Source: Climacium dendroides (Eukaryota > Streptophyta > Bryopsida > Hypnales > Climaciaceae). Taken from it: 64,000 nucleotides of DNA. The DNA lies in the NCBI GenBank assembly GCA_950106755.1, contig OX467083.1:15247029-15311028 (forward strand), in the 5' to 3' direction. The notes below the pieces were generated by a model. That model saw only the letters and a list, made by a program, of their open reading frames with translations, did no database searches and had not been told where the DNA came from. The translations under genes were made by a program, and so were the position numbers. The stretch's first letter is position 1, and each line of letters opens with the position of its first letter. Below are positions 22,980 to 56,919 of this stretch, in pieces.

Positions 22980-25410
22980 TACCCAACATGACAAGCAGGA
23001 CACCCAAAATGACCCAGTTAGTTACCATGGGATACTCCAGCAGCTCCATCTTGTGATACTTCTGTGCACAAGGGAGCCTCCCATGTCATTCATTGCAGCT
23101 TTCTGCTAGGAGCTTCACCTGGTCCCATCTTGACCCACGAAGCCTACACCAAGCAAGCAAGGAGACCTACCTAATTAAGAAGCAGCCTAGCTACACTTGC
23201 CGAAGTAACTCCACTCAAAACAGGAAGGATAACGAACAGCTGCATGAAAGTCATGCTGGCAGAACTCCAACATGCAGACTGCTATGTATCGTTTGACAGG
23301 AAATTACAGAACAAAAAAGTCGCCAAGTGAACACAGGTATGATAGTACTGAAGATGTGAACAACCTTCTTTACCACACTCTTTCAAGATCTCCAACTAAG
23401 TTTCCCCAGTGAACTCAGGGTGGATTCCTCCCTGGCTGCAGTTGCAATCCACATGATGTTATCAAAATTACTCTTATGATCGATCAGTCTACTACTAACA
23501 GAAGATCCAGGCAACGCTACACAGAACTTTCAAATAATGCTACATGCAGTTTGATTGTGATATTCTGTTATCGCATATTTCCTAAGTTCTAGAAAGAAAT
23601 TTTGAAATCTCCCTGATCAATAGTACCTGCATTAATACAAACTTCGGTAGCACCTCTCTCCGGCCCTGGCCTCTATACACTTCTGCGGGATATTTCCTCC
23701 AGCGATACAATCTGTTAAAAACACGAGTCAGACATACTTAGTGAGGAAGAAACTCAATCGTAACTTTAATGAGCAATTAATTAGAAGAGCGTTTTCATGG
23801 GCTTATGCAGAGACCATTGATTTCTAAGTTGGACTTCGAAGTTAGATCCTTGTAAGCTACAGAAACTCAGAAGATATTGCTATGATTTCTTCGTGCTGGT
23901 ACTTCTATCTCGTTCTTCGTTTGTGACCTACGGAATTTTAAATATTTGATATTGCATGTTTCTTTCAATTATAACTATAGATCGTTCCCTAATGTGCAAA
24001 ATTGTCTGTGACTCGGAGGAGATTGAGGAATTGAATTTTCTGGTGTTTTGGGTGTCACCGTTTCAGTAAAGGGAAGCTTAGTGAAGACCCGTGTGGAAAG
24101 CCGTATGGGTAGTTCATGCACAAACGGTTGTGAAATTGATGTTGCGATTGATGACATATGCAACCTGCAACATAAAAGTCATCATTTACAATGAAAGAGA
24201 AGAACATCAGCAGAGAATCACATCCAAAGTTTTCCCAAATCTCTCTGAAATATCCGTAACATTCTGACCTTTACTCCATTGACTCTCGCACGCAACTCAT
24301 CTGCTGCTTTTGACAATCTCCAGAAATTCGGGACCCATAGCACGAAAGAGTCTAGTGACTTCGACCTGAAAAGAAAAGACATTCATTTGGGTCAACAAAG
24401 CTGAATCGAATTGTTGGTTGGTTGAAAGGGTAGAGAAATGCTGTTAGCAATCGATCTTATTTCAACCAACCAACAATTTCGGTAAATGAAGCAGAGGTCC
24501 ACGGACAGGTGTCTTGGTCATGAAATAGCATACCCTCAGATGACTCCTCAGCTTCTTCTATCCTTTTCAAAATTCTTCTTACATCCCTTCCATACGCCCC
24601 TTGGGTTCAGAACGACAGGTCAACTTTCAAATCAACTCAGCGACAACTGTCGGCAACCACTTCAATGCCCTGGTCTTGTCAGTTCCGAAAACTTCACATC
24701 CATCAGCAATCAAGCTTTTGGGACTAATGCTTACCTCTGTTCAAATGAATGATCTTGGAGTCAGGCTGCATTGTACCATCGTTACTAACAGAGATTTTTT
24801 CAAGATCTACCATGATTCTTTCGGAGAGGTTGTCCACGATGTTCCCAGTTGATTCGGATAAGCTACAATCTAGAAAGGAGAAGGGTGCATTTGGGGCAAG
24901 AGCTGGGTATCACTCCAGTGTTCGCACAATTATTTGCGGACGGTCAACTCATATTCTTGAGCACTGCCAAAAATCAGTTGTTTCGGCTGAATATGAACTC
25001 TGTGTGTTGATCCACTCGGTTCTAAAGCAACTAAACGTCGATACAAGCAAGATTCAGAACTTAGTGACCAGCCAAAATTCATTGATGTTCAAAACGGTAG
25101 ACGGCCAGCCTCGGCACCATCAGCTTCCCTGCATCTGCATGCTGATGCAGCCGCTAATAGGTCCTGCAATAAGATATCGAAGTGGTACTGTAAGCATGTA
25201 AATTATGACAATGAGTGATGACTAGGACTGTTATAGCAATTAACGAACCTTTTCTTGCATCCATAATCCAACACTATCTAGATACATTTTATTCAATGCC
25301 ATTTCAATAAAAATTTAATTAGGGTTAACCCAATCTTTTGTAACGGGTGCAACACCACCCCAATCATTAACGCGTGCATCAATTAGTTTCTTCCACTCTT
25401 TCCATCCATC
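22980..25410 (-). pseudogene. cofG/cofH: FO synthase (CofG-CofH fusion), copy 2, lacks the CofG N-terminal half
   Basis: Exons in order on the minus strand: 25410-25249 (NDWGGVAPVTKDWVNP, then TAA at 25317-25315), 25163 to about 25070 (VPRLAVY), about 24900-24735 (NIVDNLSERIMVDLEK), about 24590-24534 (DVRRILKRIEEAEESSE), 24365-24269 (VEVTRLFRAMGPEFLEIVK, frameshift, AADELRARVNG), 24164 onward (VAYVINRNINFTTVCA, then TGA), 23711-23627 (a TAG, then GATEVCINA), 23427-23365 (GIHPEFTGET, then TAG, LEILKE) and 23143 to about 23040 (ASWVKMGPG, frameshift, AAMNDMGGSLVHRSI). These are the CofG C-terminus, the linker and most of the CofH landmarks. Splice sites are mostly still GT-AG. No CofG start exons lie upstream; repeat R1a follows instead. 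It keeps CofH exons that copy 1 has lost. Function is lost. Confidence 0.85.
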
Positions 25411-25811
25411 CTACAGAGCAAAAGTTTCACAATAAATTAAATGTGGGCTCAAAACCAAAGCATCGAACGTACAGCAGAGAGCAGAGAGCAGAGAGCAGTG
25501 AATCCCGAATTCCGAATTTGACGTCGTTCCAACAAAAGACAGAAACACAAAGGTTTTGAATAAAGCAAATAGATGTTCCTTGAAACCTTAAACTAGGAAC
25601 ATGATTTTCTATATCCAATTTCAAATGTCTGCAAATGTTTACAAATTTTCTTGCATGAATGCCATTTGTAGCAATGGTGACTTTGGTCACCATTGCCTAA
25701 AAAATGGCGATTCTTTGAGCGCCATTGGCAAGGTTGCCATTGCTACAAACTACCCACTTATACAACTCTTGATAAGCAACTAGTATTGTGTCCATGCTTA
25801 GAGAGAATTGT

Positions 25812-54500: not shown

Positions 54501-56919
54501 GGGCCCGCAATAAGATATCAAGTGATACAAGCACATAAATTATAACAATGTGACGACCAGGACTGTTATAGCATGTAACTTACCTTTTCTTGCATCCATA
54601 GTCCAACCCTACCTAGATACATTTTATTCATTGCAATATTAATACAGTTTTAAAAAGAGACCTCAAGATTAATCCAATCTTTTGGAACGGGTGAAACGCT
54701 ACCCCAATCATAAATGCCTGCATCAATAAGTTTTCTTCTACTCTTTTCCATGCAACAGCCTTGCAGAGCAGAAATTCCACAATAAATTAATGTGGACTCA
54801 AAACCAATTCATCGAACGTACAGCAGTGAGCAATAAATTCCGAATTTCGAATATGACGTCTTTCCAACAGAAGACAGAAGCTCAAAAGTTTTGAATAAAG
54901 CAAACAGAAGTTCCTTAAAAACTGCACTCGAAAAACTTATCCCAGGCTACTCAGAAAGTTAGAGAGTCCCTACGAAAAACTTCTTTCAATCTTCGAAAAC
55001 ACTCACGGTAAGTACCAGCATATTGATCCAATATTATGCGAGGTCAAGAACGGTACATGGTGGGAGCAAGATTGGGTGGTGATTGTATACTCATTGATGC
55101 TCCAAACACCAACCGCGACATTGCAATTGTCCACTCGCTTTGGCCATCGCGGTGTCCTTAGCACAAAAGTTTTGGATAATGATCTCCTGGATATACCCAT
55201 ACTGGTTATATAGGTCGCGGAGAGCAACCAAAGCGTGCAATCGCTCTTCCCGGGTTTCGCCAATACCAATGAGTAGGCCAGAAGTGAAAGGCACCTTCTT
55301 ATCGCCTGAAACACGAACCGGATCATGGTCGCGAGACATATTCAACCTCTGCCAAAATCATCAGTCAATCAATCAATAGACGTTTGGAAGATAAAATCCG
55401 AAACCTTGAACCCTGAAATGTGAGCGTGTTATAACTGCAAAAGTCCAGTGTTTGCTTCCTCGTCATATGCTACTCTCACTGTGCATGAAAGAGCATTCTC
55501 TCACCAGCTACATCAATCGAGGCGAGCCGAGTATATGGAATTTTGTCGGGACATTTGTAATGTGAACACCCTGGCTCCAACAACCTTTCGGAGACCGACA
55601 TCAGTCCCTGACTGACAGAAACACGGCGTAGGAGTGACACGTCGTCCGTTGACATAACTCCAACATGCATGTGAGGCAGTTTGAAGGATGATTCTGGCTA
55701 CATCAGTCGCATATGATACTGTTGATGAATGATCCAGAGCTTCAAGCTGACATACATGTGATCAAGGAGAAGATTTCAATCGCAGTTCGATTGAGGATAT
55801 AAATAATGAACTAAATTATCGAAAGAGTAAATAAATCAAACGTGGATCCTAAAGGTATTATTTAACATTGAGAATGGATTGGTCTGAGGTTTTTATACCT
55901 CAGAAATCATGCATGCGCTGGAGAAAATCGTGCACTGCAGTATACAGATTCAAAAAGAAAAGAGGATCGGACATACCTTATGCTTCGCTTGGTCGTAAAG
56001 AAGCCAGGGCTCGTCGCCCAATATGAACAGAGCCTCCGCGCAACCTGCTTCTACTCCTGCACGAGCCACCTCTAGCACCCGATGAATGCTAACAATAAGC
56101 TACATGTGCTAGTACTTCAAATGCAAGAGAATTACAGCAAGGAACGAACGTAATGTAGCCGACCATCTCACAAGTTGTTCGCATAGTAGACGCCTTCATA
56201 ATTGAGATTGGAGATATCCGAATATTTCAAGAAAGAACCAGGATCGAGGTCGTTTGTGTAGAATTCCACTACAAAATTTGCATCCACAGGCACGTTCTAA
56301 ATCAGCACTTCAATATCGAGGCCACTCTAGCTTGCAAGAAAGTACGCAAGAAATTTGAATCTGCTTTTCAATCATCTTTCTTTGTCAGAGCTTCACAACA
56401 ATAACAATTTCATATTTCCTATTAATGCCAGTTTCAAGGAAATCGAAACTTGTCCTCTCACCTCATCGACGGACATGTAGGCAGGCTTCCCCGGTCGAGG
56501 TGCAGTAGCCACAGAAAACTCGACACACGCGCGTAAGAGGAAAAAAAACCTTGGGAGAGAAAGTGACGATGCCACCGTCTTCTCCCCGTTCAAGAATCCG
56601 AGCAGTAGCTGCAGCGAGACGGTCTATTCCCAAATCCATCACCTCGCGAAGAGCTTCCGCATCTGGATGCTCCCCGAGAACGCCACTGTGAGTGAGCTCA
56701 AGCGTTTCAGAACCACATCCTTCGGCTTTTTTATTCACCACTTGTCGTCGACACCGGTGCGCCGCAAGGAAGTTTGTGAAGCGATAATCGCGATTTAGCA
56801 GAGATTGTTGAAAAAACTGGATTCCCATGAGAGAAACGCTCCAGGGATGTCCTCGCACACGGACGGCAACAACTCCGCGGGACATTGCAAGGCAGAGTGG
56901 CAGCAACTTGACATTTCAT
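51555..56919 (-). pseudogene. cofG/cofH: FO synthase (CofG-CofH fusion), copy 1, decayed
   Basis: FO synthase joins a ribityl-pyrimidine to tyrosine to make the deazaflavin FO, using two radical-SAM halves. Leader: 56919-56731, Ser/Arg/Ala-rich, plastid-transit-like. CofG exons seen: 56919-56462 (VTFSPKVFFPLTR, then cluster motif CRVFCGYC), 56078-55977 (VARAGVEAGCAEALFILGD), 55746-55505 (MHVGVMS, SVSERL), 55305-55007 (LLIGIGETREER, then QNF and SIQSPPNL), 54759-54584 (LIDAGIYDWGSVSPVP) and about 54505-54393 (VPRLAVYP). Linker exon: 54043-53826 (DPEALRKVR, ARVEGWSTG). CofH remains: about 53700-53642 (GAYGMDIRRFLK) and 53108-53036 (KGATEVC). Breaks: frameshifts after the leader, after CGYCT, before LPHMHVG and after AMAKA; a TGA after NLAPTMYRS; acceptor loss at exon 2; a MITE in the CofH exon; and an inverted block at 53.4-53.57 kb. 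Identity is firm; function is surely lost. Confidence 0.88.
53587..53641. mobile_element. Very short GGGGAATTT-family element inside an FO synthase exon
   Basis: Two facing ends (TTGCCCATTTCGGTAGAATG and, reversed, TGAGCAATTTCGTTAAAATG) lie about 15 bases apart. On the minus strand the CofH exon of copy 1 breaks off at this point, just after GAYGMDIRRFLK. Confidence 0.55.

Follow-up and report, generated by a model that had tools for sequence, protein, structure and literature searches.

FO synthase copies in the window

The window analyzed here, a 64,000-nucleotide stretch of the Climacium dendroides genome, harbors an FO synthase gene (fused CofG-CofH) in three copies that contain introns and have broken frames: copy C (57024-51639), copy A (25586-22918), and copy B (approximately 50375-48097). 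A first-pass annotation had read signature stretches of both radical-SAM halves on the minus strand, and a peptide search of the window recovered all eight of the stretches it quoted on that strand, with no mismatches. In a tblastn search with P0002, a 901-aa protein as found in Physcomitrium, the window returned a colinear series of minus-strand exons (top E-values 5e-30, 4e-28, and 7e-25), and this moss protein aligned exon by exon. When ten pieces of the window were compared with NCBIfam models, CofGH, CofG, or CofH was the top match for 8 (E 1e-21 to 0.005), and the 2 pieces without any match were both linker between the CofG and CofH halves. Pfam returned nothing relevant for ten short window pieces, giving two chance-level matches only (E 0.33 and 0.4).

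The features are as follows, with the evidence for each in parentheses.

56502-56525, 55241-55276, 25330-25368, 24129-24155, 23628-23654, 23405-23428, 23123-23143, and 23070-23090, minus: the eight quoted peptide stretches (0 mismatches)
51639..57024, minus: copy C, an FO synthase pseudogene that reaches from ~105 bp ahead of the start codon as far as exon 18 (blastn and protein-to-DNA alignment)
56462..56919, minus: copy C exon 1, with start codon, leader, CofG motif CRVFCGYC, and two frame breaks (motif search, protein-to-DNA alignment)
55977..56078, minus: copy C exon 2, with an acceptor that reads GG where AG is expected (protein-to-DNA alignment, lesion comparison)
55506..55746, minus: copy C exon 3, one frame break and small losses (protein-to-DNA alignment)
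55059..55303, minus: copy C exon 4 (LLIGIGETREER), one frame break (motif search, protein-to-DNA alignment)
54662..54749, minus: copy C exon 5 (YDWGSVSPV), frame break, acceptor changed
54403..54504, minus: copy C exon 6, in-frame stop, acceptor and donor changed
53827..54043, minus: copy C exon 7, one frame break (protein-to-DNA alignment)
52930..53110, minus: copy C exons 12 and 14 (CofH), exon 13 absent between them (blastn, protein-to-DNA alignment)
51821..52517, minus: copy C exons 15-18 (CofH), interrupted by a stop and by several frame breaks (protein-to-DNA alignment)
50277..50375, minus: detached piece of copy B, intron 5 and exon 6 start (blastn)
49608..50060, no strand assigned: dispersed repeat between the two parts of copy B (matches several places in the 210 kb around the intact gene)
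48097..49515, minus: copy B, remnant from exon 6 to just beyond exon 7 (tblastn, blastn, protein-to-DNA alignment)
22918..25586, minus: copy A, an FO synthase pseudogene spanning intron 4 through exon 19 but without exons 14-18 (blastn against the intact gene)
25330..25368, minus: copy A exon 5 (CofG), NDWGGVAPVTKDW (exact peptide match)
24120..24164, minus: copy A exon 10 start (CofH), VAYVINRNINFTTVC, the remainder of the cysteine motif gone
23886..24117, plus: inverted block of ~230 bp in copy A holding exon 11, corresponding to parent L008 5246-5020 (blastn)
23381..23434, minus: copy A exon 13 start, GGIHPEFTGET with a stop (peptide match, protein-to-DNA alignment)

Copy C lacks exons 9, 10, and 13 and is 79-85% identical to the intact gene described below, introns included (blastn). 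Copies A and B are truncated. Copy A is 71-78% identical to the intact gene (blastn), with weaker similarity (66%) to its 3' flank at 22467-21749 and no match to exon 20, while copy B is hardly more than the exon 6-7 region. The inversion in copy A places one CofH piece on the plus strand, which adds to the earlier description of the locus. The span given in that description ends at 56919, the first base of the copy C start codon.

An intact gene and the decay of the window copies

A search of the rest of the genome for an intact copy, as the first-pass annotation had proposed, found a complete FO synthase gene on contig C40, with 20 exons, 19 of 19 introns bounded by GT-AG, and a product of 908 aa that is 82% identical to P0002 over 839 positions. 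Each half of the translated gene carries a radical-SAM CX3CX2C motif (CRDFCGYC and CGYRCQFC). The protein passes the cut-offs of all three relevant models (CofGH, 1063.9 bits against 1018; CofG, 470.2 against 213.35; CofH, 546.8 against 374.1) and stays below those of MqnC (370.2 against 428.1) and MqnE (327.4 against 434.55). The C40 gene is probably functional, judging from its sequence.

This gene bears on two alternative readings of the window. One is that the exons come from another radical-SAM family (MqnC, MqnE, or biotin synthase), the outcome that the annotation had named as fatal to its claim. One window exon does score weakly with MqnC (16.0 bits) and BioB (15.7), and the sole solved structure with a sequence match is an aminodeoxyfutalosine synthase (6xi9); however, CofG reaches 77.2 bits on that exon, CofG/CofGH standing ~60 bits above MqnC and BioB, and the intact gene lies over the CofGH cut-off and under both Mqn cut-offs, so that this reading is refuted and has practically no probability left. 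The other is that copies A-C mark the end of deazaflavin synthesis in the plant. In its favor, 3 of 3 window copies are broken. No Ceratodon FO synthase was named among the matches listed, although the database has Ceratodon proteins. The C40 gene ended it for the Climacium genome: it is complete, with all introns, both cysteine motifs, and scores over the CofGH, CofG, and CofH cut-offs, and we regard pathway loss, refuted at the sequence level, as very improbable. Because a complete gene exists on C40, the window trio is better read as dead duplicates of a living gene, and C. dendroides probably still makes a deazaflavin pigment.

Phylogenetic analysis placed copy C as sister to the intact gene (support 100), with branches of 0.180 and 0.025, respectively; in the same tree the mosses group together (support 94) and bacterial proteins fall apart from land plants (support 93), by which a recent bacterial origin was rejected. 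A tree built without the intact gene likewise spoke against a bacterial source of recent date. Copies A, B, and C form one clade (support 100), with an order of branching inside it supported at only 53-59.

The annotation had also described an intron-bearing nuclear gene in three copies, all of them broken, and both descriptions agree with the tblastn exon series and the protein-to-DNA alignments. Frame-breaking changes account for 14 of 16 coding indels in copy A, 1 of 3 in copy B, and 11 of 16 in copy C; together with changed splice sites and missing exons, these leave no open reading frame across both halves in any copy. Copy C retains the CofG CX3CX2C motif and lacks the exon with the CofH motif, copy A has neither motif whole, and copy B covers neither. 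Each copy has its own lesions and its own intron DNA. In pairwise comparisons of A, B, and C, no coding indel was common to any two, and acceptor 6, the one splice site altered in B as well as in C, has different bases in the two. Similarity by blastn continues through introns and into the flanks, as in unprocessed pseudogenes duplicated at the DNA level, and a retrocopy origin was rejected because the copies contain introns.

Between copies C and A, coding and intron positions have drifted alike (70 differences at 471 coding positions and 138 at 937 noncoding positions, p 0.94; 36/295 and 161/1086, p 0.30, in an earlier version of the comparison). A nearby pair of P450 genes in the window behaves differently, with 87/1022 differences at positions 1 and 2 against 282/1612 at noncoding positions (p 4e-11). 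Measured against the intact gene, coding divergence is lower than noncoding divergence in copy C (199/1983 against 386/3312, position 2 lowest) and clearly so in copy A (86/851 against 266/1662, position 3 highest), a difference that is not decisive because it arises in part from constraint on the intact gene itself. Some constraint on A and C before their death, or alignment bias, may also have contributed.

Origin of the copies and of fragments elsewhere

A DNA search found pieces of the FO synthase gene at nine further places in the genome, one of them a 123-bp intron piece only. Five fragments elsewhere, less diverged than the window trio, lie within a repeat family with modules U, V, and W and have breakpoints in common; at C1 and C38:15.77 the gene piece shares its last base with the piece at C41, and W starts at the next base. 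Plant transposons, including Pack-type elements and Helitrons, are known to capture pseudogenes and gene fragments, and the five fragments are likely products of such capture. A simple scan of the repeat, with its 5' limit only roughly placed, found no terminal inverted repeats and no inverted copy of the V end. These fragments probably represent a separate, younger wave in which a transposon-like repeat took up FO synthase pieces and carried them to new places, where they were likely methylated. We infer TE-like silencing for these younger fragments and do not extend it to copies A and C, in which the C-to-T excess is weak (odds ratio ~1.5; p 0.009 and 0.0001).

For the trio, we favor one likely DNA-level duplication of the FO synthase gene into the window region, probably followed by local tandem duplication into copies A, B, and C, which would since have drifted under little or no selection. 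The data show the homology, the introns, the lesions, the complete gene on C40, and the common clade of the trio directly; the order of events, the silence of the copies, and the activity of the C40 gene are inferred. Overall, we are quite confident in an explanation in which the trio are broken copies of the C40 gene that arose in this way, the C40 gene makes FO, and the younger fragments were spread by a transposon.

The trio could instead be an older transposon capture, like that of the five fragments, multiplied in tandem afterwards. In favor of this, each of those five loci joins its FO synthase piece to U, V, or W in a single unit, and copy B has a C-to-T excess of the same kind as that in the four fragments examined. 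However, V and W have no match of at least 60 bp in the window (E up to 1e-5), U matches it only through a dispersed part of ~200 bp (15161-15357), and A and C jointly reach both gene flanks, which no captured piece found does; we therefore consider this origin unlikely. Quite unlikely, too, is that the C40 region was once duplicated as a large segment or with the whole genome and that the trio is what remains. Whole-genome duplications are well known in mosses, and the copies include introns and flanks, but a comparison of 210 kb around the C40 gene with the window gave 69 matches (E up to 1e-15), and those of at least 150 bp were FO synthase and scattered repeat-like stretches, none of them on the 14-3-3 exon, the DUF7869 frames, or the pair of P450 genes. 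That the breaks are assembly errors can be practically dismissed: no evidence in its favor was found, the P450 exons elsewhere in the window retain both long frames and constraint, and among the lesions are an inversion, exon losses, and a repeat that separates two parts of copy B.

Product of the gene and its place among land plants

Elsewhere, FO synthase produces a deazaflavin pigment that absorbs blue light, and the C40 gene is predicted to make FO (8-HDF). Going by its family name, the CofH half would move the hydroxyphenyl part of tyrosine onto 5-amino-6-ribitylaminouracil, and the CofG half would presumably finish the deazaflavin ring. CofD (TIGR01819) had no match in the genome at E up to 0.001, in an exon-wise search that may miss an intron-split gene and whose control was positive in 6 of 14 genomes; because CofD was not found, the pathway likely ends at FO and not at F420. 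The likely use of FO would be as the antenna pigment of a photolyase or cryptochrome. Against such a use, animal-like cryptochromes, which bind 8-HDF in algae, are reported to be absent from land plants (PMC8591175). According to a review of photorepair (PMC7694213), MTHF on Arabidopsis cry3 is the sole plant antenna confirmed experimentally.

Named FO synthases among the matches listed came from mosses, liverworts, ferns, lycophytes, and conifers, and in a literature search, mainly of open-access papers, no title among those listed dealt with land-plant FO synthase. PMC6118203 lists a protein from leaves of the flowering plant Persicaria minor that is named FO synthase by its best match to Nocardia; unless this protein is misnamed or comes from a contaminant, flowering plants may not lack the enzyme altogether. 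We see about an even chance for a broader model in which FO synthesis is ancestral in land plants, coming from streptophyte algae; was retained by mosses, liverworts, lycophytes, ferns, and conifers, with FO and not F420 supplying the antennas of photolyases or cryptochromes; and was lost toward flowering plants, with the same gene repeatedly yielding dead copies and transposon-carried, methylated fragments in C. dendroides. Since model mosses and liverworts have an intact, conserved FO synthase, whether plants use a deazaflavin antenna can be tested directly by knockout (Physcomitrium, Marchantia). The pseudogenes are ordinary in themselves and carry a caution for mosses, in that an exon-level match need not be a working gene and broken copies need not signal a lost pathway.

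The FO synthase of Physcomitrium patens (UniRef A0A7I4DNG6, LOC112280192), matched by P0002, is likewise a fused CofG-CofH protein, and P0002 is the nearest relative of the C40 gene in the tree; the P. patens protein is full length, whereas the window copies are broken and truncated. The bifunctional CofGH of bacteria (FbiC, NF006687) resembles the plant gene in carrying both radical-SAM halves on one chain in the same order, but the plant gene differs in its 19 introns and N-terminal leader. Finally, the fragments elsewhere in the genome resemble transposon-captured plant gene pieces in being intron-bearing, joined in a unit with repeat modules, and present at several loci with common breakpoints, a likeness that holds for those fragments and not for the window trio.

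An intact FO synthase gene and three decayed copies

The first-pass annotation had claimed remnants of an FO synthase gene on the basis of eight peptide stretches, all of which are present on the minus strand with no mismatches. This reading is right in substance, as the motifs, the NCBIfam models and tblastn with P0002 (a 901-aa FO synthase that matches a Physcomitrium patens protein) agree. The translated search that it had proposed, run as tblastn with P0002, returned three places in the window:

57024-51639, minus strand, copy C
25586-22918, minus strand, copy A
~50375-48097, minus strand, copy B

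The best NCBIfam model was CofGH, CofG or CofH for eight of ten frame pieces from the window (1.3e-21, for CofG, to 0.0048), while the two linker pieces had no NCBIfam match. Pfam, given ten pieces of which nine were identical to those given to NCBIfam, found no radical-SAM domain in them and returned two chance-level matches. In a protein search, the window pieces matched 7559 proteins (8000 candidates scored); the best among the 120 matches listed were Physcomitrium FO synthases, followed by proteins of Sphagnum, liverworts, ferns, lycophytes, Cryptomeria, algae and bacteria.

In this genome of 412.6 Mb and 123 contigs, the window occupies C2:15247029-15311028. We searched the whole genome with the CofH model at E up to 0.001 and obtained seven matches, all within C40:25517874-25524314; the CofH pieces of the window were too broken to register. 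The 9.9-kb locus at this position encodes a whole FO synthase protein, and exon joining gave the following gene:

C40:25524617 to 25517367, intact FO synthase gene, 20 exons, 19 of 19 introns GT-AG, 2727 nt, 908 aa

The predicted protein keeps both cysteine motifs, shares 82% identity with P0002 across 839 positions, and scores over the NCBIfam cut-offs of CofGH, CofG and CofH and under those of MqnC and MqnE. The sole solved structure matched by sequence profile was aminodeoxyfutalosine synthase 6xi9, in the CofH half (E 2e-52).

In a first tree of 29 proteins picked from the matches plus copy C (508 columns), copy C was sister to Physcomitrium (support 100). When the intact gene was added, it became sister to copy C (100), the pair joined Physcomitrium (100), and these three grouped with Sphagnum as mosses (94). 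The branch to copy C is 0.180 long and that to the intact gene 0.025. Liverworts, ferns and conifers each grouped and the two lycophytes did not; some deep nodes are weakly supported (24-93), and the labels of a few algae (Mesotaenium, Botryococcus) are our interpretation of source codes.

Origin and decay of the window copies

All three copies resemble the intact gene in DNA comparison: copy C through introns (C40:25524745-25521255, then gapped to 25518133), copy A between intron 4 and exon 19, introns included, and more weakly past the stop codon (66%), and copy B around exons 6-7. Matches of at least 150 bp between the window and the 210 kb around the intact gene comprised FO synthase and scattered repeat-like stretches, indicating that a large block either was not copied or has since been scrambled. 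When bases were aligned using the intact gene as anchor, the three window copies grouped as one clade apart from that gene and the fragments elsewhere (support 100), with a weak inner order (53-59). Two cytochrome P450 genes of moss type also stand in tandem in the window:

11297-14493, P450, three long-frame exons
36731-39971, P450, three long-frame exons, 82% alike to the first

Among named proteins, the closest match (63%) comes from Pohlia nutans and carries the label flavonoid 3',5'-hydroxylase, followed by one from Ceratodon (58%); a nameless JGI protein matches at 77%. Together with the tree, these matches indicate that the plant is likely a moss. The offset of the P450 pair (~25.4 kb) is similar to that of A and B (~24.4 kb), which makes a single tandem duplication that took in both P450 and FO synthase likely. 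Noncoding differences amount to 282/1612 in the P450 pair and 57/278 between A and B.

Several other elements were observed in the window. A 1.2-kb repeat pair (26152-27323 and 44151-45290, 93% alike, lacking frames of at least 90 aa) is less diverged than the surrounding P450/FO synthase duplication, and clusters of related ~120-460 bp blocks, 72-80% alike, adjoin both P450 copies (14329-17427, 39816-40789). Palindromic or inverted-pair elements, fold-back or MITE-like, lie at 34913-35733, 58058-58241, 58373-58603 and 41445-41863 with 42233-42653; the 41.4-41.9 kb arm has an 89% copy on C40, ~9 kb away from the intact gene. Long minus-strand frames in a row (5669-8065), one with a DUF7869 domain (3.1e-40), are a possible transposon remnant. 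A 14-3-3 exon (60897-61475, minus strand, 2.8e-59) and a perfect AAT repeat of 37 units (1522-1633) were also found.

Lesions were assessed by protein-to-DNA alignment allowing introns and frame breaks, run with P0002 and with the intact-gene protein. Stop, frame-break and intron counts vary with the model. Copy C, covered over residues 1-829 of 908, has 2 stops and 11 frame breaks, and 4 of its 16 modelled introns lack GT-AG. Copy A (residues 378-671) has 2 stops and 4 frame breaks, with GT-AG missing from 6 of 8 introns, and copy B (residues 415-523) has a single stop, no frame breaks and 2 of 4 introns lacking GT-AG. DNA comparison with the intact gene gave 16 coding indels in A (14 frame-breaking), 3 in B (1) and 16 in C (11). 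Of the splice sites covered, A has 1 of 16 altered, B 2 of 4 and C 6 of 27. No two copies have a coding indel in common in overlaps of 471 (A-C), 209 (A-B) and 256 (B-C) coding bases; acceptor 6 is altered in both B and C, with different letters. Copy C lacks the gene parts with exons 9 and 10 and with exon 13, copy A lacks exons 14-18 and contains an inverted block of ~230 bp, and copy B is interrupted by a dispersed repeat.

Polarising changes by fragments elsewhere in the genome placed most on the copy side rather than the intact-gene side (C, 241 vs 30; A, 55 vs 9; B, 87 vs 11; unclear sites, 22, 9 and 16, respectively, left out), which makes it likely that the copies died soon after separation. 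Copies C and A diverge from each other to much the same degree at coding (70/471) and noncoding sites (138/937, p 0.94). The P450 pair, by contrast, shows constraint at codon positions 1+2 (87/1022 vs noncoding 282/1612, p 4e-11). Compared with the intact gene, C (199/1983 vs 386/3312) and A (86/851 vs 266/1662) have fewer differences at coding than at noncoding sites, and B does not (51/271 vs 85/478). The deficit in A and C speaks against a simple picture of drift; constraint acting on the intact gene would account for some of it.

Younger fragments in a repeat family

Genome-wide, FO synthase matches at E up to 0.001 numbered 37 by protein search and 31 by DNA search. Five places carry fragments 84-93% identical to the intact gene, in units of a repeat family (modules U, V and W) with intron-bearing FO synthase pieces:

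C38:1191676-1195242, fragment at 1.192-1.194 Mb
C40:708645-711058, fragment at 0.710 Mb
C41:17451417-17455780, fragment at 17.453 Mb
C1:42825545-42830824, fragment at 42.826 Mb
C38:15762718-15769372, fragment at 15.763-15.767 Mb

DNA search also gave old or very short fragments, mostly 68-79% identical for the first three:

C34:10630554-10631088 (10.63 Mb)
C2:7840230-7843652 (7.84 Mb)
C2:7867343-7868535 (7.867 Mb)
C38:6192805-6192927 (6.193 Mb), intron piece, 123 bp, 92%

Module W was defined to start directly after the C41 gene piece; the pieces at C1 and C38:15.77 stop at the same gene base as the C41 piece, and W starts at the next. The same two gene pieces with the same 30-bp spacing are common to C40:0.71 and C38:15.763, module U is common to C38:1.19, C40:0.71 and C41, and a one-base deletion in exon 6 is common to C41 and C1. 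Module V lies in the same unit as the gene pieces at C38:1.19, C40:0.71, C41 and C1, and adjoins W at C38:15.77; among the 66 matches listed, with 40 of 72 candidates scored, ten copies are 89-100% alike over most of its length, and there are weaker ones besides. These common breakpoints, spacing, modules and deletion make it likely that the younger fragments stem from a single capture followed by spread with internal deletions.

The fragments with repeat modules are a second wave, younger than the window copies. C-to-T/G-to-A changes against the intact gene, counted in four of the five younger fragments and in A, B and C, far exceeded the reverse at C38:1.19 (79/727 vs 10/891), C41 (29/300 vs 6/384), C1 (35/343 vs 8/470) and C40 (15/183 vs 4/186), mostly at CG and CHG sites combined. 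Such an excess at CG/CHG is the mark expected of methylated plant transposons. Copy B has an excess as well (55/320 vs 17/429), and those of A (90/1050 vs 85/1463, p 0.009) and C (174/2263 vs 153/3032, p 0.0001) are weak.

Distribution and possible use of FO synthase in land plants

A profile of 11 plant proteins matched 7999 proteins. Names among the 120 matches listed include Physcomitrium, Sphagnum, Calypogeia, two Riccia and two Marchantia, together with Ceratopteris, Adiantum, Diphasiastrum, Selaginella, Cryptomeria, Taxus and several green algae. Flowering plants, hornworts and Ceratodon do not appear among the names in these best 120 of 7999; since many rows are nameless, their absence is not proved, and a protein designated FO synthase has been reported from one flowering plant.

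CofD, the next step to F420, had no match in this genome, with the control giving a signal in 6 of 14 genomes. According to a review, evidence that eukaryotes make F420 as a redox cofactor is lacking (PMC8498797). An FO antenna is reported for several photolyase/cryptochrome classes in two papers (PMC9178010, PMC8591175), the latter of which says that algal animal-like cryptochromes binding FO are absent from land plants. Photolyase genes do exist in mosses, with homologs numbering 8 in Physcomitrium, 9 in Ceratodon and 16 in Pohlia nutans according to another paper (PMC9247546). We infer that C. dendroides may use FO in a photolyase. The retention of FO synthase across non-flowering land plants is the wider point that deserves specialist attention, and the window pseudogenes themselves are a fresh example of an already known kind.
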